Source of the DNA: Roseateles sp.
GTDB lineage: Bacteria; Pseudomonadota; Gammaproteobacteria; Burkholderiales; Burkholderiaceae_C
Length of the DNA: 64,000 nt
Assembly (NCBI GenBank): GCA_016790285.1
Contig: JAEUPJ010000008.1
Location: 58,544 to 122,543, forward strand
Direction: 5' to 3'
The position numbers and the translations under genes are program-made. The notes beneath the pieces are model-generated. The model saw only the letters and a list, made by a program, of their open reading frames with translations, made no database searches and had not been told where the DNA came from. Position 1 is the stretch's first letter. Each line of letters opens with the position of its first letter. Below, one piece after another: positions 3,274 to 52,684 of the stretch.

Positions 3274-5604
<2,331 letters not shown>

Positions 5605-6377: not shown

Positions 6378-7060
6378 TGCGCATCCTGCCCGTCGTTGCC
6401 GCGCTCTGGATCGCCGCCCCTGCGCTGGCGCAGGACGCCACGCCGGCCAAGGGCATCTACACCTGCACGACATCGGACGGCCGCAAGCTCACCAGCGACC
6501 GCCCCATCCCCGAATGCCTGTCGCGCGAGCAGCGGGTGCTCAACCCGGACGGCTCCCAGCGCAGCACGCTGCCGCCCTTCCTGAGCCCGGAGGAACGCGC
6601 CGCCAAGGAGGCCGCCGACCGCCGCACCGCGGCCGACCGCCTGGCCCAGCAGGACGCCATCCGGCGCGACCGTGCGCTGGTGCTGCGCTACCCCAACGAG
6701 GCCTCGCACCAGCGCGCCCGCAATGCCGCCCTGGACGACGCCAACAAGGCCATGCGCATCTCCGAGCGCCGCATCAAGGACCTGACCGCCGAGCGCAAGC
6801 CGCTGCTGGACGAAGCCGAGTTCTACAAGGGTCGGCCCCTGCCGGCCAAGCTCAAGCAGTCGCTGGACGCCAACGACGCCAGCATCGAGGCCCAGCACGT
6901 GCTGATCGAGAACCAGAAGGCCGAGCTCGTGCGCATCAACAAGGGCTTTGACGCCGAACTGGCCCGGCTGCGCAAGCTGTGGGCCGGCACGGCGCCCGGG
7001 AGCCTGCCGCCGCTGGGCGAGATGCAGGCCACCACACCCGCGCCGACACCCAAGCGTTGA
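6377..7060 (+). CDS. DUF4124-like secreted coiled-coil protein
   Basis: The 227-residue product has a signal peptide (about 1-17, ending ALAQ). A short domain with the IYTCTTSDGRKLTSDRP pattern of DUF4124-like envelope proteins follows (about 25-65). The rest is a charged helical stretch rich in Ala, Arg, Lys and Glu (about 70-200) that should form a coiled coil. It is probably periplasmic; its role is unknown. The start overlaps the pyrE stop codon, which shows coupled expression but no obvious functional link to pyrimidine synthesis. It meets gatB tail to tail. Confidence 0.8.
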   Translation: MRILPVVAALWIAAPALAQDATPAKGIYTCTTSDGRKLTSDRPIPECLSREQRVLNPDGSQRSTLPPFLSPEERAAKEAADRRTAADRLAQQDAIRRDRALVLRYPNEASHQRARNAALDDANKAMRISERRIKDLTAERKPLLDEAEFYKGRPLPAKLKQSLDANDASIEAQHVLIENQKAELVRINKGFDAELARLRKLWAGTAPGSLPPLGEMQATTPAPTPKR

Positions 7061-7102
7061 CGGCGCGGCGGCGGGCGCCCAAGCACCCGCCCCGGCCCGG
7101 GT

Positions 7103-8554
7103 TCAGCCGAGCTTCTTCTTGAGCAGCTCGTTGACGAGCGCCGGGTTGGCCTTGCCCTTGGTGGCCTTCATGGCCTGGCCGACCAGCGCGTTGAACGCCT
7201 TGTCCTTGCCCGCGCGGTACTCGTCGACCGACTTGGGGTTGGCCGCCAGCACCTCGTCCAGGATGGCCTCGATGGCGCCGGTGTCGCTGACCTGCTTGAG
7301 GCCCTTGGCCTCGATGACGGCGTCGACATCGCTCGACTCGCCGCTCCACAGCGCCTCGAAGACCTGCTTGGCGGCGTTGTTGGAGATGGTGCCGTCAGAG
7401 ATGCGGGCAATGAGCCGGGCCAGCAGCTCGGGGCCGACCGGCGCGGCATCGATCTCCGCACCCGAGGCGTTCAGCCGCTTGCTGATCTCGCCCATGACCC
7501 AGTTCGCCACCAGCTTCGGCGTCGCGCCCGCGGCCTTGGCGGCCTCGTAGTAGCGCGCCGTGGCCAGGCTCTGGGTCATCATGGTCGCGTCGTAGGCGGG
7601 CAGGCCGTCCACGCTCTCGAAGCGCGCCGCCATGACCGACGGCAGCTCGGGCATCTCGCCCCGCACACGCTCCACCCACTCCGGCGCGATGACGAGCGGC
7701 GGCAGGTCGGGGTCGGGGAAGTAGCGGTAGTCCGCCGAGTCTTCCTTGCTGCGCATCGCGCGGGTCTCGCCGGTGTCGGGGTTGTACAAGACCGTCGCCT
7801 GCTGGATCTTGCGGCCGTCCTCGATCTCGTCGATCTGCCAGTTCACCTCGTAGTTCACCGCGTCGACCAGGAAGCGGAAGCTGTTGAGGTTCTTGATCTC
7901 GCGGCGCGTGCCGAAGGGCTCGCCGGGCTTGCGCACCGACACGTTCACGTCGCAGCGGAACGAGCCTTCCTGCATGTTGCCGTCGCAGATGCCCAGCCAC
8001 ATGACGAGGGCGTGCAGCGTCTTGGCGTACTCGGCCGCTTCAGCCCCCGAGCGCATGTCGGGCTCCGACACGATCTCCAGCAGCGGCGTGCCGGCGCGGT
8101 TCAGGTCGATGCCGCTCTGGCCGTGGTAGTCCTCGTGCAGGCTCTTGCCTGCGTCCTCCTCGAGGTGCGCACGGGTCAGGTTGACCTTGTGCTTGACGTC
8201 GCCGACGAAGAACTCGACCGAGCCGCCCTGCACCACCGGGATCTCGAACTGGCTGATCTGGTAGCCCTTGGGCAGGTCGGGGTAGAAGTAGTTCTTGCGG
8301 GCGAAGATGGACAGCGGCGCCACCTTGGCGCCCACCGCCAGACCGAAGCGGATGGCGCGCTCGACCGCGGCGCGGTTGAGCACCGGCAGCGTGCCGGGCA
8401 GGGCCAGGTCCACGGGCGAGGCCTGGGTGTTGGGCGCCGCACCGAAGGCGGTGGAGCTGCCGCTGAAGATCTTGCTCTGCGTGGAGAGCTGGACGTGGTT
8501 TTCGAGGCCGATGACGACTTCGTAGCCGCGGATGAGTTTCGGGGTGCTGGGCAT
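7103..8554 (-). CDS. gatB: Asp-tRNA(Asn)/Glu-tRNA(Gln) amidotransferase subunit B
   Basis: The 483-residue subunit B of GatCAB activates mischarged Glu-tRNA(Gln) or Asp-tRNA(Asn) with ATP so that it can be amidated. Family motifs are clear: [14 protein letters not shown] at the N-terminus, the [11 protein letters not shown] and [15 protein letters not shown] segments, and the C-terminal YqeY-like tail ending KKKLG that contacts tRNA. It is the last gene of gatC-gatA-gatB. The 82-base gap after gatA contains a GC-rich hairpin repeat, unlike the tight gatC-gatA overlap. Confidence 0.97.
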
Positions 8555-10124: not shown

Positions 10125-10420
10125 TCGATGACCTTGGGAACGAGGAACAGGCCGTCTTCCACGGCCGGGGCGCTCTGCTGGTTGAGCTCGCGCTGGTTGG
10201 TCTCGGTGACGACGTCGTCCCGCAGGCGCAGCTGCACCTGCTGGATGGCCGACAGCGGCGTGTACAGCGGCTCGATGCCCGCCGTGTCGACGGCGCTCAT
10301 CTGGTCCACGATCTTGAAGAAGTCGTTCAGGTTGCCCAGCAGCGCGTCCGACTCGGCCGGCTGCAGTTCCAGCCGGGCCAGGTGGGCGATGCGGCTCACG
10401 TCGTCAGGGGTGAGGCTCAT
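10121..10420 (-). CDS. gatC: Asp-tRNA(Asn)/Glu-tRNA(Gln) amidotransferase subunit C
   Basis: The 99-residue GatC stabilises the GatA-GatB complex. The N-terminal [19 protein letters not shown] is the family hallmark and the length is normal. It is the first gene of gatCAB. The 212 bases between it and mreB (10421-10632) must hold divergent promoters for both operons; an AT-rich TTATTAT near 10490 is a candidate -10 element, but no confident pair was found. Confidence 0.95.
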
Positions 10421-10596
10421 GAAGGGTTTTCAGATGTAAGCCCAGCGCCAGAAACCTAGTGCTGACCGGCTTAAAAACAGGGTGATCGGTTATTATCGCC
10501 GCCCATCTTCATGGCCTTCGAGGCTGCCCTTTCTGCGACGGATTTCGTCGCCGGCCGGGCGGCCTCGATGCTTATCCAGCCCCCCGTTTTTCTTGA

Positions 10597-37261: not shown

Positions 37262-38026
37262 GTGGATGCCCCCGCCGTGAAGCCTCTCGCCTTCGTCGCC
37301 CCCTCGCCGGTTGCCGCCCCTGCGCGCACCGCCGTGCTGCGCGTGCCGACGCCGGGCGCCGAGCGCCGCTTCGGCGATACGCCGCCGAGCCGGCGGCTGC
37401 TGCTGGTGGGCATCGCGGCCTTTCACCTGCTCGCGTTCTGGGGCCTGAGCCAGGTGCAGAACGTGCGCCACACCGTGGCGCGGCTCGCGCCCGTTGTCGT
37501 GCGCCTGGTGGCCCCTGCCGAGCCGCCCAAGCCGCAGCCGCCGGTGCCCACGGCCCTGCCGGACATGAAGGCCCCGGCCGTGACGATGATCGACCCGCCG
37601 CTGATCGCCGTGGCCACCGCGCCCGCGCCGTCGCCGGTCGTGGCCGCCCTGCCGCCGCCCCCGCCGCCCACCCCCGTGCAGGCCACGCCCGCGCCCGCCC
37701 CGGTGGTGCAGGTCGTGCCCCCGCCCGCACCGCCGGCCCTCAAGCGCGTGCCGGCCAGCGCCGTGCGCTATGTGCGCGAGCCGCGCATGACGGTGCCGCT
37801 GATGTCCAAGCGCCTGCGTGAGTCGGGCGTGGTGCAGCTGCGCGTCGTCGTCGACGTGAACGGCCTGCCGCGCGAGATTTCGCTGGCGAAGTCCTCCGGC
37901 TTCGCCCGCCTGGACGAGCAGGCGCTGCAGGACATGCGCAGCGCCCGCTTCGCCCCCCAGACCGAGAACGGCCAGCCCATCGAGTGGGAGGTCATCGCCC
38001 CGATGTCCTACGAAGTCGATCGCTGA
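37262..38026 (+). CDS. tonB: TonB-like energy transducer
   Basis: The 254-residue protein has a single N-terminal membrane anchor (about 45-63) after a 44-residue cytoplasmic tail. A Pro-rich periplasmic spacer (about 75-165, many Pro-Pro and Ala-Pro units) leads to a C-terminal TonB domain (about 170-254; GVVQLRVVVDVNGLPREI). TonB passes the proton-motive force from ExbB/ExbD to outer-membrane receptors. No exbBD genes are in the window. A GTG at 37262 is taken as start; another GTG five codons later also fits. Adjacent to a siderophore receptor and preceded by a Fur box, so it is probably an iron-dedicated TonB. Confidence 0.85.
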   Translation: MDAPAVKPLAFVAPSPVAAPARTAVLRVPTPGAERRFGDTPPSRRLLLVGIAAFHLLAFWGLSQVQNVRHTVARLAPVVVRLVAPAEPPKPQPPVPTALPDMKAPAVTMIDPPLIAVATAPAPSPVVAALPPPPPPTPVQATPAPAPVVQVVPPPAPPALKRVPASAVRYVREPRMTVPLMSKRLRESGVVQLRVVVDVNGLPREISLAKSSGFARLDEQALQDMRSARFAPQTENGQPIEWEVIAPMSYEVDR

Positions 38027-45365: not shown

Positions 45366-48260
<2,895 letters not shown>

Positions 48261-48333
48261 GGCAGTTTTCACAAGGGAACCGGCCATGATAGGCCGCCAC
48301 AATGGCTCGGACCCAACGCTTGCCTTTGCCCGC

Positions 48334-50364
48334 ATGAAGAACTGCCTGGCCGCCACCCTCCTGGCCTTGTCCAGCGCCCTCGTCCCGGTCGCCTCGGCCC
48401 AGCCGGCCCCTGCCGCCAGTGGCGCCTCTGCCGTGCGGCCATCCGCTCCCAGCGCCACCGCCTTCTTCAAGCGCGCCGCCGTGCGCGCGCCCAAGCTCAG
48501 CCCGAGCGGCCGCTACCTGGCCATCCAGGCCGCGGGCAAGGGCGACCGCATGTGGCTGGCCGTGCTGGACCTGCAGACCATGCAGCCGCCGAAGTTCATC
48601 GCCGGCTTCAACGACGCCGACATCGCCAACCAGCACTGGATCAGCGAAGACCGCCTGGTTTTCGACGTCTCCAACTCGCCCGACGGCACCACGCGGGTGA
48701 ACGGCCAGGGCCTGTGGGCCATCAACCGCGACGGCACGGTGATGCGCCAGCTCATCAAGAGCGACCAGCACTTCATCACCGAAGCCACCCTCATCGCCGA
48801 CCGCCGGCTCGACATCAACTGGATCCTCTACCGCGTGCCGCCCAGCCTGGATGGCAACGAGGTCATCGTGATGCGCCGGCCCTGGCTGCATGAAACCAGC
48901 ACGGGCGTGCAGCTGGCACGGCTGGACACGCGCACGGGCCAGATGCGCAACCTCAACGAGGGCATCCCCGACCACAGCACCAGTTGGCTGCTCGACTGGC
49001 GGGGCGAGCCGCGCGTCATCGACACGCTCAAGGACGGCAGCAGCCGCGTCTACCGCCGCGACGACGCCGGGCGCTGGCAGTTCTGGTTCGAGGACGACCC
49101 CCAGGCGCGCAAGCATCCGGCGCCCATCTGGCTCGGGCCCGACAACCAGATGCTCGGCGAGCAGGGCTTCAACGGCTACGGCGCCGTGTTCCGCCTCGAC
49201 CCGGAGACCGGCCGCGCCGACGGCGAACCCCTGATCGCCACGCCGGGCTACGACTTCACGGGCCGCCTGATCTCCGAGCCCGGCACCGGCCGCCTGCTGG
49301 GCGTGCGCTACGAGACCGACGCCCCGGGCACCGTGTGGTTCGAACCGACCATGAAGGCCCACCAGGCCGACATCGACGCCAAGCTGCCAGGCACCGTCAA
49401 CCTCATCGAGTGCCTGCGCTGCGTGCAGGCCAGCCACCTGGTCGTGACGTCCCTGTCGGACGTGCGCCCGCCGCTGTACTTCCTGTACGGCACGGCTGAC
49501 AAGCGGCTTCAGGCCCTCGCCGGCGCCCGGCCCGACCTGCCCGTGGCCGCCATGGGCCAGCGCGACTACCACCGCTTCAAGGCCCGGGACGGCCTGTCGG
49601 TGCCCGTGCTCGTCACCCAGCCGGCCGGCGGCGTCAAGGGCCCGGCCCCCACCGTGGTGCTGGTGCATGGCGGCCCCTACGTGCGTGGCACCCACTGGCG
49701 CTGGGAGCCCGACGCCCAGTTCCTGGCCAGCCGCGGCTACCTCGTCCTGGAGCCCGAATTCCGCGGCAGCACCGGCTACGGCTTCCGGCATTTCCGTGCC
49801 GGCTGGAAGCAGTGGGGCCTGGCCATGCAGGACGACGTCGCCGACACCCTCGCCTGGGCCGCGAAGCAGGGCTGGGCCGACCCCCGGCGCGCCTGCATCG
49901 CGGGCGCGAGCTACGGCGGCTACGCGGCCATGATGGCCGCCGTCACGCAGGGCGACCTCTTCAAGTGCGCCGTCAACTGGGTGGGCGTGACCGACATCGG
50001 CCTGTTGTCCAGCATCAGCTGGAGCGACCTCTCCGCCGAATGGAAGAACTACGGCATGAAGCGTTTGGTCGCCGACCCCGACACCGACGCCGAGCAGATC
50101 CGCAAGACCTCGCCGCTGGCGCGCGCCACCGAGATCCGCATCCCGCTGCTGATGGCCTACGGCGCCGAGGACCTGCGCGTGCCGCTCAAGCACGGCACGG
50201 CGCTGAAGGGCGCCCTGCGCGCCGACCAGCCGCTCGAATGGGTCGTCTACCCCGAAGAGGGCCACGGCTGGTTCAACCTCAAGACGAATGAAGACTTCTG
50301 GGGCCGGGTGGAGCGCTTCCTGGCGCAGCACATCGGCCCGAACGCGCCGAACCGGAAGCCATGA
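48334..50364 (+). CDS. S9-family (prolyl-oligopeptidase-type) serine peptidase, exported, copy 1
   Basis: The 676-residue protein has a signal peptide (about 1-23, ending ASAQ), a seven-bladed-propeller-like region (about 40-400) and a C-terminal alpha/beta-hydrolase domain. The catalytic triad is visible: Ser in [11 protein letters not shown], Asp in [10 protein letters not shown] and His in EEGHGWFN. Dipeptidyl/acylaminoacyl peptidases of this type digest oligopeptides in the periplasm. The start at 48334 is set by the signal peptide. Its stop overlaps the start of a paralogue (ATGA at 50361-50364). Confidence 0.9.
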
Positions 50365-52322
50365 CCCTCTTGGACCTTCGCGCCCTCGCCCTGCTGCTGG
50401 CCGCCGCAGCTGCACAGGCCACACCGCCCAGCATCGAGGACTTCCAGCGCCCGCCCGCCTTCTCGGGCCCGGTGCTGTCCCCGGACGGCCGGCACATCGC
50501 CGCCATCGTCAACCCCGACGGCAAGACCACCGCGCTGGCCGTCATCGCCACCGACAAGCCGGGTGAGGCCACGCCGCTGAAGGCCTTCGGGCAGGCCGAC
50601 ATCCGCAGCGTCCACTGGATCGACAACGAGCGCCTGGCCTTCACCGTGCGGCCGCGAGTGGACGGCGAAGGCAGGGCCATCGGCGCCGGGCTCTGGACGC
50701 TGGACCGTCAGGGCGGCAGCCTGCGTCAGTGGGTCAACCCCAGCACCCGCGGCAGCCGCGAGGACACCCCCCAGGTCAAGCGGGCCCTCGACGCCAACTG
50801 GAGCCTCTTCCAGGCCCCGGACGTGGCGCGCCCGGGCGAGCTGGTGCTGCGGCACTACGTGCCCAACGTGCAGCGCGAGCTGAGCTATGTGGAGCTCGCC
50901 CGGCTGGACCCGAGCACCGGCGAACGCAAGCTGCTCACCGAGGGCGCGCCGGACCATGTCATGGACTGGGTCCTGGACGCCGCCGGCAACCCGGCCTTCG
51001 CCTTCAGCAGCAATGGCCGCGGCGGCAGCCTCGTGCACTGGCGCACGCCCGAAGGCCGCTGGGCGGTCTGGCATGAGCAGGCCGACGACGAGCCCTACCG
51101 TCGCCCGCTGGCGATCGACCGCGCCGGGCGGCCCTACCTTCTGGTCAACGAGAACGGCCGGATGGCCCTGCACCGCGCCGACAACCTGGCGCCCGATGCG
51201 CCCACCACACGGCTGGCAGGCTCGACGGTCTACAGCCTGTGGCCCCGGCTGCTGCGCGACGCCGACAGCGACGACCTCCTGGGCGTGCAGTTCGACGCCG
51301 ATGTGCCGCAGACCGCCTGGTTCGCGCCGGCGCTGGCCGGCGCCCAGGCCGAGATCGACCGCCGCCTGCCCGGTGCGGCCAATCTCATCAGCTGCCTGCG
51401 CTGCCTGGCGGTGCCCACGGTGCTGGTCACGTCCTTCAGCGACCGCCGGCCGGTGCGCTACTTCCTGTTCAACCGGGAGACCGGCCAGCTGACCGGCCTG
51501 GCCGCGTCCATGCCCTGGATGCCCGAGGGCCGCCCGCGCCAGGTGGCCAGCACTGCCGCCCGCGACGGCCTGCGCCTGCCGCTCATCGTCACGCACCCGG
51601 CGCAGCCGACCCCCGGGCCGGCACCCACCGTGCTGCTGGTGCACGGCGGCCCCTGGGTGCGCGGCAACCACTGGCCGTGGCAGCCCGAGCCCCAGTTCTA
51701 TGCCTCGCGCGGCTACCTGGTGCTGGAGGTGGACTACCGCGGCAGCACCGGCTACGGCGTGCGGCATGAGCGCGCGGGCGACAAGCAATGGGGCCTGAAG
51801 ATGCAGGACGACCTCGACGACGCCGTCGCCTGGGCCGTGAAGCAGGGCCTGACCGACCCGAAGCGGGTGTGCATCGTCGGCGCCAGCTACGGCGGCTACG
51901 CCGCGCTGATCGGGCTGTCGCGCGGCCAGATGGCCTGCGCCGTCGCGAGCCTCGCACCGACCGACCTGACCAAGCTGACCTCACGCCACTGGTCTGACGC
52001 GCGGGTGGAGACGCTCGCCTACAGCCTGCCGCGCCGGCTGGGCGACCCGGTGGTTGACGCCGCGCAGCTCAAGGCCAGCTCGCCCATCCAGCGCATCGAC
52101 CAGCTGCAGGGCCCGCTGCTCATGCTCTACGGCGCCCTCGACACCCGCGTGCCGCTGGCCCATGGCACCGAGCTGCGCGACGCCCTCACCGCCGCCGGGC
52201 GCCCGCCCGAGTTCGTGGCCTACCCCAACGAGGGTCACGGCTTCTACAAGTGGGAGCACCAGCAGGACGCCTGGCGCCGCATCGACGCCTTCCTGGCCAC
52301 GCATCTCGCCCCGAAGCCCTGA
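50361..52322 (+). CDS. S9-family (prolyl-oligopeptidase-type) serine peptidase, exported, copy 2
   Basis: The 653-residue paralogue has a signal peptide (about 1-20, ending AAQA), propeller-like repeats and a hydrolase domain. Its triad is Ser in [11 protein letters not shown], Asp in [10 protein letters not shown] and His in NEGHGFYK. Alignment by eye with the preceding gene shows the same block order, including [15 protein letters not shown] and RGSTGYG motifs, so a tandem duplication made the pair. Translation is coupled to copy 1. Confidence 0.9.
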
Positions 52323-52459
52323 CCATTCATCGCCGCCCCCCGCAGATCGCCCCCCCGCTCTGACGCTTCATCGCAGCGCCATGGCGGCGCGGGGCTCGGT
52401 TGCAGAAACTGCTTCCATCGACACAGCAATACCGCTGTGCGAACCCCAAAGGAAGCATC

Positions 52460-52684
52460 ATGAAAGCCACCGTCCTGATCCAAGCTGCTGCTGTCGCCGC
52501 CTTCGCGTTCACCGCCTTCGCTGCCAGCGCCGCGCCCCAGGAAGTCAAGCAGCTGCCGCGCGTCGTCGTCACTGGCAAGGCCACCCAGGAAGTCGCCCAG
52601 CTGCCGCGCGTCGTCGTGACCGGTTACGCCGTGCGCGAAGTCGCCCAGCTGCCCCGCGTGACCATCACCGCCCGCCGCGCCTGA
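52460..52684 (+). CDS. Tiny exported protein of three TonB-box-like 16-residue repeats
   Basis: The 74-residue product has a signal peptide (about 1-25, ending ASA-A) and then exactly three 16-residue repeats (27-42, 43-58, 59-74). Repeats one and two contain EV(K/A)QLPRVVVTG; the third has EVAQLPRVTITA. The LPRVVVTG core resembles the TonB box near the N-terminus of many TonB-dependent receptors, such as LEAVIVTGSR at 3274-5604. The repeats are encoded by a 48-base period (52538-52681). A GGAAG site precedes the ATG. The function is unknown; a TonB-interacting peptide is inference only. Confidence 0.65.
   Translation: MKATVLIQAAAVAAFAFTAFAASAAPQEVKQLPRVVVTGKATQEVAQLPRVVVTGYAVREVAQLPRVTITARRA

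Follow-up and report, generated by a model that had tools for sequence, protein, structure and literature searches.

A family of small TonB-box-like repeat peptides in Roseateles and relatives, with a common LytTR-type promoter and a putative role as TonB ligands

We found that a 74-residue open reading frame in the window, the 64,000-nucleotide stretch of Roseateles DNA analysed here, belongs to a multi-gene family of small repeat peptides, that the cores of these repeats match the TonB boxes of receptors in the same genome, and that the family genes have a LytTR-type promoter in common and co-occur with one LytS-type two-component system. Judged from sequence comparison, all five elements (gene, family, core-to-box match, promoter and co-occurrence) are clear, and the family, its promoter and the two-component system go beyond the initial annotation, which had described a single secreted peptide. 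As to function, we tentatively read the peptide, with confidence somewhat short of even, as a periplasmic TonB ligand or decoy that would be produced when the sensor fires.

The translation of 52460-52684 on the forward strand is a 74-residue chain, MKATVLIQAAAVAAFAFTAFAASAA-PQEVKQLPRVVVTGKATQEVAQLPRVVVTGYAVREVAQLPRVTITARRA, and bears out the initial description of a signal peptide (by inspection) followed by three 16-residue repeats. The mature chain has about 50 residues, and its three cores, which begin at residues 31, 47 and 63, recur at intervals of exactly 16. The features of the gene are as follows.

52450..52455, + strand: Shine-Dalgarno AGGAAG, 4 nt 5' of the ATG (sequence)
52460..52684, + strand: coding sequence of the 74-residue repeat peptide, stop included (ORF list, orthologs, dN/dS)
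52460..52531, + strand: signal peptide, residues 1-24 (inspection: hydrophobic stretch, AxA-type cleavage near ASA-A)
52550..52576, + strand: core 1, QLPRVVVTG, residues 31-39 (receptor-box score 19.8)
52598..52624, + strand: core 2, QLPRVVVTG, residues 47-55 (receptor-box score 19.8)
52646..52672, + strand: core 3, QLPRVTITA, residues 63-71 (receptor-box score 20.1)

That no receptor is attached to the repeats was also confirmed, as Pfam and NCBIfam gave no match over cut-off to the peptide, the matches lying well under it. Several identities were tried and rejected: DUF4148 (PF13663) reached 8.1 bits against a cut-off of 27, the excisionase and all other Pfam matches were below cut-off, and a TonB-dependent receptor was dropped for want of the plug PF07715 or a barrel (Pfam matches below cut-off). 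Colicin or microcin identity was set aside on the absence of receptor-binding and killing domains in Pfam and NCBIfam, and a double-glycine-leader (NHLM/class II) peptide on the Sec-type signal (by inspection) and the missing GG site. A search of plasmids with the 74-residue peptide returned no matches. The single-sequence AlphaFold model had a pLDDT of 49.6 and a pTM of 0.15, with no confident fold; this would be expected of a disordered linear motif and led us to discard a solenoid or amyloid fold, although one such model is weak evidence. The neighbouring genes read as S9 peptidases, of which one was assigned by Pfam and the other by eye, a 416-residue protein that matches nothing in Pfam and, by eye, a cyclase-like protein; no exporter gene was recognised among the flanking ORFs. 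The two S9-type peptidase genes overlap each other and lie directly 5' of the peptide gene (window 48106-50364 and 50361-52322).

Upon examining related genomes, we found that 17 of 19 from the same genus hold a direct ortholog that is 81-92% identical and aligns over at least query residues 1-70. At E <= 0.01, matches occurred in 22 of 60 genomes, comprising the own genome, all 19 of the same genus and two of 16 others of the same family, whereas the same search of 24 order-level genomes (E 0.01) gave none. Across 18 orthologs, own included, dN/dS was 0.20 in the signal, 0.26 in the cores and 0.29 in the linkers, with non-synonymous change of 0.061, 0.065 and 0.172, respectively, and synonymous change lower in the cores (0.22) than in the linkers (0.44), which indicates that the frame is under purifying selection. 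The element LPRV is retained in 53 of the 54 core copies of this alignment. The exact 16-residue period described initially holds for the window peptide but not across the orthologs, some of which have linkers 3-4 residues longer (EVAQ versus EVAQVQQ), and we therefore take the core to be the conserved unit. The ORF is short and lies in a GC-rich region rich in spurious ORFs, as would suit a chance reading frame or the remnant of a receptor gene, but in view of the orthologs present in all but two of the 19 same-genus genomes, the dN/dS of 0.20-0.29, a promoter of its own and paralogs, we regard such an origin as exceedingly improbable.

The homologues with varying repeat number foreseen in the initial annotation were found by sequence: small proteins that bear two or three L(P/E)RVVxxG cores make up a family in the Roseateles/Pelomonas/Paucibacter group, and five clear copies are in the own genome. 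Besides the window peptide, the own-genome paralogs comprise a pair of nearly identical three-core copies on contig C39, 7.9 kb from each other, two-core copies on contigs C100 and C99, and a one-core copy on contig C65. The two copies on contig C39 (L009:2288-2557 and 10188-10457) flank a region with a peptide ABC transporter and a DmpA-like peptidase, as read by eye. With a two-core member as query, 16 of 150 same-family genomes matched at E <= 0.001. We gathered 61 distinct family proteins from the fetched loci by the core pattern, a procedure that required cores and so missed core-less relatives, some of which surfaced later through the promoter. Of the 153 cores in these proteins, 116 have P at position 2 and 35 have E, 150 have R at position 3, and 151 have G or A at position 8; at position 7, T occurs in 87, V in 25 and E in 23, T being lost in 66. 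The conservation of LPRVVVTG is thus partly upheld, in that direct orthologs keep it and wider members keep L(P/E)RVV, but the latter often have V, E or I in place of T. No Pfam family (one member tested) or NCBIfam family (three members tested) was matched. The 32 named family loci are in records titled Roseateles, Pelomonas, Paucibacter, unnamed Burkholderiales, Burkholderiaceae or Comamonadaceae, and three odd records. The odd records are a Methylotenera MAG, a Rhodoferax MAG and a Nostoc sp. CHAB 5836 culture (L204, L208 and L218), in which the family genes may reflect contamination in binning or culture.

Next, we investigated the likeness of the core to the TonB box, for which the initial annotation had pointed to a receptor and a TonB gene of the window.

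3274..5604, + strand: TonB-dependent receptor with box QLEAVIVTG, for comparison (sequence; N-terminus matches family profile A2, E 9.9e-4)
37262..38026, + strand: TonB, PF03544, E 8.5e-15, candidate partner by inference (Pfam)

The window receptor at 3274-5604 bears the box sequence VSQLEAVIVTGSRR. The own genome has 52 plug domains and seven TonB_C matches, 37262..38026 among the seven. We read the N-termini of 30 of the 52 receptors and took 25 boxes by a loose self-written pattern, dropping the five of 30 that lacked a match; the matrix built from these 25 boxes is partly circular, as the same loose pattern chose them. Examples are KLERVEITGSS, KLERILVTGSN, ALPRIVVSATR and ELEAVVVTGTA. On this matrix the three repeats scored 19.8, 19.8 and 20.1, and the receptor boxes themselves, in leave-one-out scoring, ranged from 2.5 to 29.2 with a median of 22.1, so that the claimed resemblance stands, all three repeats falling inside the own-genome receptor range. 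The best scores of the 61 family members (14.7-24.2, median 20.2) likewise all fall inside it, whereas the 192 ORFs that served as background, drawn from the window and from 11 loci, had a median of 1.3 and a 95th percentile of 9.4. Seven of the 192 exceeded 12, namely two receptors, two receptor-sized ORFs lacking a domain scan, the peptide itself, a 171-residue protein with a signal-like N-terminus and a promoter match, and a 453-residue ORF at 12.8. None of 5000 shuffles of the mature chain reached the peptide's score. In the reverse direction, family profile A2, run on 300 Burkholderiales genomes, matched receptor-type N-termini at E 1e-4 to 1e-3, six of them in other genomes (by eye) together with the window's own receptor. 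The likeness of the core to receptor TonB boxes is real at the level of sequence, and the 74-residue peptide is, by the measure of same-organism receptor boxes, TonB-box-bearing. At the position of the core Arg, receptor boxes vary among R, T, K, A and P; the near-invariant Arg of the peptides, together with their frequent loss of Thr, shows that they are under some further constraint beyond that of a receptor box.

The same 300-genome search, in which some 0.3 matches at E 0.001 would be due to chance, also returned small peptides in three genomes of one other Burkholderiales genus (E 2e-5 to 1e-4). In the Burkholderiales family of that genus 12 of 28 genomes match, and all 11 of the 12 that were read encode a double-glycine leader followed by two repeats, as in VVKLEKITVTAKREQPQQVVKLDKVTVTAKRE (loci L294, L295 and L296, from G412, G057 and G317, and L297-L307). 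On the own-genome matrix, the better repeat of these peptides scored 13.1-19.9 and the other as low as 7.6. In the three neighbourhoods fetched, the peptides lie near C39-type ABC transporters, a transporter pair being visible in two, and the one pair scanned is NHLM-type (TIGR03796, E 3.6e-273), with ABC1 over the cut-off and ABC2 just below. The lone receptor box read in this lineage, QIEKVSITATKR, has K and TAxKR in common with its peptides (KLEKITVTAKR), a likeness drawn from one receptor.

Upstream of the family genes we observe a conserved promoter, laid out in the window as follows.

52322..52331, + strand: LytTR-like site 1, ACCATTCATC, overlapping the stop of the upstream S9 peptidase gene (offset 12)
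52342..52351, + strand: LytTR-like site 2, GCAGATCGCC (offset 32)
52363..52372, + strand: LytTR-like site 3, ACGCTTCATC (offset 53)
52405..52411, + strand: conserved GAAACTG, possible -10 region (the word or a close variant occurs upstream of 57 of the 61 family members)
52341..52427, + strand: match to promoter model R1, 61.3 bits, E 3.8e-16 (the sequence is itself one of the model's 27)

The upstream DNA of 57 of the 61 members was anchored on the GANACTG-like word, which four lack, and 27 chosen stretches align gap-free across 108 bases. They hold three GCAGTTCATC-like sites at offsets 12, 32 and 53 (spacing 20 and 21), then CTGG, then GANACTG, whose start lies 33-65 bases from the ATG across the family promoters. 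Scored against a 10-base site word that is a consensus drawn from the same alignment, the mean matches of 10 at the three offsets were 6.9, 7.4 and 7.1, compared to 2.55 over all offsets. All three sites reached at least 6 matches in 36 of the 57 promoters, two in 18 and one in three, and in a five-shift control any site was found in at most one of 57. According to the cited passage of PMC4847170, LytTR sites are repeats of 9-11 nt with 11-13 nt between them; the family gaps of 10 and 11 nt are at or just under that range, and such a pair of repeats is present in the window promoter (52322, 52342, 52363) and at least two of the three sites in 54 of 57. FliA-, sigma-54- and ECF-type readings of the element, considered by eye, were dropped after the phased repeats were seen. 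With R1, a sequence-only model built on the 27 stretches, the five clear family genes rank first in the own genome, and copies outside the model are recovered as well, that on contig C100 at E 1.1e-8 and the second on contig C39, a near-duplicate of a modelled copy, at E 1.1e-19.

When R1 was applied to 29 loci (496 kb), we obtained 71 matches at E <= 0.5, of which 37 exceeded 28 bits. One ORF was read after each of these 37, some of whose promoters had belonged to R1: 30 are members with at least two cores, two are one-core ORFs (one apparently broken), four are small proteins lacking a full core and one is an AraC/cupin-like protein (by reading). The four core-less proteins, which count against full conservation of the core, have a hydrophobic N-terminus, in three of them resembling that of some members, and this partial similarity suggests relatives that lost their repeats or never had any. 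Their loci are L078:12679-12779, L162:6056-6150, L081:8426-8527 and L161:4382-4474. Across six whole genomes, already sampled, there were 39 matches at E <= 1e-4, or 5-9 each, and the 11 read precede seven two-core members, a core-less 58-residue protein, an AraC-like protein, an ABC-transporter ATPase and a 178-residue protein. Among the downstream ORFs read, a subset of the promoter matches, no receptor, tonB or exbBD was recognised. Additionally, the 171-residue protein mentioned above is present in the own and 18 of 19 same-genus genomes behind a weaker promoter match (L149:5777-5850; protein L227-L246), with a site-like word upstream and an LERVEVSG-like motif after its signal-like N-terminus. 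It had no matches in Pfam, NCBIfam or PDB, and only faint similarity to the own TonB_C set (hhalign probability 25%, E 7.5e-4, 50 columns).

In other genera, a recurrent gene set lies near the family genes, consisting of a PF06580 kinase, a LytTR regulator and a DUF2807 protein, often with recQ nearby. The DUF2807 gene comes after the kinase and regulator in G026 and in the own genome and is present in several other loci, and the DUF2807 proteins of this operon have signal-peptide-like N-termini (by inspection). Among the 13 LytTR matches of the own genome, the ortholog is on contig C85, 64% identical to that of G026 and accompanied by the kinase and the DUF2807 partner. The operon, recurrent across genera, is at L148 ~6497-8347 and on (own contig C85) and at L078:2263-4882. 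In a search at E 1e-70 over a 150-genome draw taken to be the same as that of the family, the regulator ortholog was found in 21 genomes, in 14 of the 16 with the family versus seven of the 134 others (Fisher P 7e-13, or 3e-11 without the own genus, both ignoring shared ancestry). Two genomes have the family only (G126, 86% complete, and G138), and seven the regulator only (G064, G088, G108, G161, G181, G182 and G191); no divergent member turned up in these seven when, in each, one 19.5-kb stretch surrounding the regulator was scanned with a pattern. Of the 14 genomes with both, 10 have the regulator within 3.7-12.1 kb of a family gene; in G012 the distance is 21.7 kb, and in the own genome, G095 and G169 the regulator is on a separate contig. 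Furthermore, in eight of 17 kinase-bearing loci an R1 match lies 2-41 nt before the kinase alignment on the same strand, one of them clear (E 8e-6), three at 0.003-0.009 and four at 0.01-0.5. In eight other loci and the own genome (own: E <= 0.5) no R1 match precedes the kinase, which for the own operon, where one site-like word was seen by eye, argues against simple autoregulation. Overall, the LytS-type kinase/LytTR/DUF2807 system is probably the master of the peptide regulon.

TonB is scarce relative to the receptors that it serves, and how it is allocated in many-receptor cells is an open question. In the mechanism that we propose, the LytS-type kinase and its LytTR partner would fire, the regulator would bind the phased upstream sites, and two- and three-core peptides would be made. 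The window ORF would encode a Sec-exported periplasmic peptide, probably disordered alone, that presents three TonB-box-like strands, and in that compartment these would most likely pair with the TonB C-terminal domain where a receptor box would dock. Such pairing would bring competition with, or redistribution of, TonB among the ~52 receptors, and the peptide may thus be a natural brake on TonB-powered uptake; the steps that we infer are export, promoter binding by the LytTR regulator, contact with TonB, and an effect as throttle or decoy. If this is true, a box peptide encoded by a gene and placed under regulation would directly answer how TonB is allocated and would be the natural counterpart of the synthetic inhibitor pentapeptide. 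A broader and rather doubtful proposition is that bacteria encode dedicated free TonB-box repeat peptides, multi-copy ligands of TonB through which a LytTR two-component system would command the throttling or re-allocation of TonB energy among dozens of receptors, and that these arose at least twice, with a Sec signal in the Roseateles group and with a double-glycine leader and a nearby transporter in another Burkholderiales family. A precedent for the inhibition step is given in the cited part of PMC5413942, in which a Ton-box pentapeptide was supplied in the medium to keep TonB from acting on a BtuB variant in E. coli.

The near-invariant Arg, the frequent loss of Thr and the core-less proteins under the same promoter speak against the TonB reading, and other readings have to be weighed with them. 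The cores could instead have a different beta-strand acceptor from within the regulon, for instance the DUF2807 (head-GIN/Toastrack) protein or the 171-residue protein, and would then feed back on the sensor, by reporting to it or tuning it, and not act on TonB; in our view this is unlikely. The DUF2807 gene placed behind the kinase and regulator genes both in the own genome and in G026, its presence in several more loci and an Arg outside the receptor-box pattern, suggestive of a dedicated partner, fit such a reading, but the cores match receptor boxes closely. In the part of PMC11237479 cited, DUF2807 (Toastrack) is portrayed as a beta-helix platform linked with two-component systems and with LytTR, in keeping with this reading; against it, the paper argues that Toastrack is intracellular, whereas the DUF2807 proteins here look signal-peptide-bearing on inspection. 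Core-less small proteins with partly similar N-termini under the same promoter, and the box T so often lost, would suit a general small envelope protein, with strand-forming repeats for structure or stress protection and a TonB-box likeness that is a by-product of a short beta-strand motif. This we consider more improbable still, as the similarity to receptor boxes is far above that of most other ORFs and recurs with a different leader in another family, and the AlphaFold model, weak evidence as it is, has no confident fold (pLDDT 49.6).

LytTR systems of Gram-positive bacteria are commonly pheromone systems. Correspondingly, the peptide could be an exported bioactive one, either an agr/com-like pheromone sensed by the LytTR system or a microcin-like product that enters neighbours through its TonB boxes; the double-glycine-leader two-repeat peptides near C39-type ABC transporters in the second Burkholderiales family are in keeping with this, as is the TonB box of colicin M reported in the cited part of PMC11658791. 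We hold this to be unlikely as well, as the window peptide is Sec-type, with neither a double-glycine leader nor a known domain, and no exporter was recognised beside it. Even with a partner other than TonB, the peptides would form a clearly delimited family with a promoter code and a sensor system of its own, ready for experiment in environmental strains kept in the laboratory.

Taken one by one, LytTR regulons, TonB boxes and proteins of the Toastrack type are known. For the Ton-box pentapeptide, PMC5413942 refers to Tuckman and Osburne 1992, and BtsSR is a further LytS/LytTR two-component system for comparison. In the open-access literature, outside which most subscription papers lie, we found neither this family nor any free peptides of TonB-box repeats described, and we rate such peptides with a dedicated promoter and sensor as new in kind, their function being putative. 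Compared to the TonB box of receptors (PF07715), the family core L(E/P)RVVVTG scores as an own-genome box and likewise follows a signal peptide, whereas the peptides lack plug and barrel, hold two or three boxes instead of one, and have a near-invariant Arg and a T that is often replaced. TonB-dependent colicins and microcins also have a TonB box in a non-receptor protein, but the window peptide has 74 residues, a Sec-type signal and no known receptor-binding or killing domain. The pentapeptide ETVIV, as described in the cited part of PMC5413942, is a free box peptide preventing TonB action in vivo, which is the role proposed for our peptide, but it is synthetic and externally added, whereas the window peptide is gene-encoded, repeated and regulated. 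The regulons of AlgZR and YpdAB, in the passages cited, similarly have directly repeated elements of ~10 nt separated by 10-11 nt, and the E. coli YpdB site GGCATTTCAT (PMC4847170) and the AlgR core CCGTTCGTC (PMC4064291) resemble the family site GCAGTTCATC, but the family has three phased sites in 36 of 57 promoters and its targets are small repeat peptides. In PSP/Lia systems, according to the cited part of PMC11237479, a two-component system also adjoins a Toastrack-type protein, whereas here there are a LytTR regulator, a PF06580 kinase and a regulon of repeat peptides; PspA/PspC and LiaI/LiaF were not recognised by eye in the listed sensor-operon neighbourhoods. NHLM-exported double-glycine-leader peptides are alike in that those of the second lineage bear two TonB-box-like repeats, but differ in leader and export, the window peptide lacking such a leader.

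Finally, the weaker own-genome R1 matches number 79 beyond the top five (E 0.001-10), and among the 14 for which downstream ORFs were read, five look plausible (L103, L104, L105, L110 and L113) and the others chance-like. R1 matches also precede ABC-transporter ATPases and another DUF2807 gene at L113 (contig C16), L283 (G026) and L110 (contig C18), those at L113 and L110 being weak in the own genome and that at L283 having an E of 4e-5 in G026; the genes behind them are possible further regulon members. We also observe a protein of ~105 residues with a signal-like N-terminus and little beyond a TonB_C domain at L249 (own contig C4:251892-252098).
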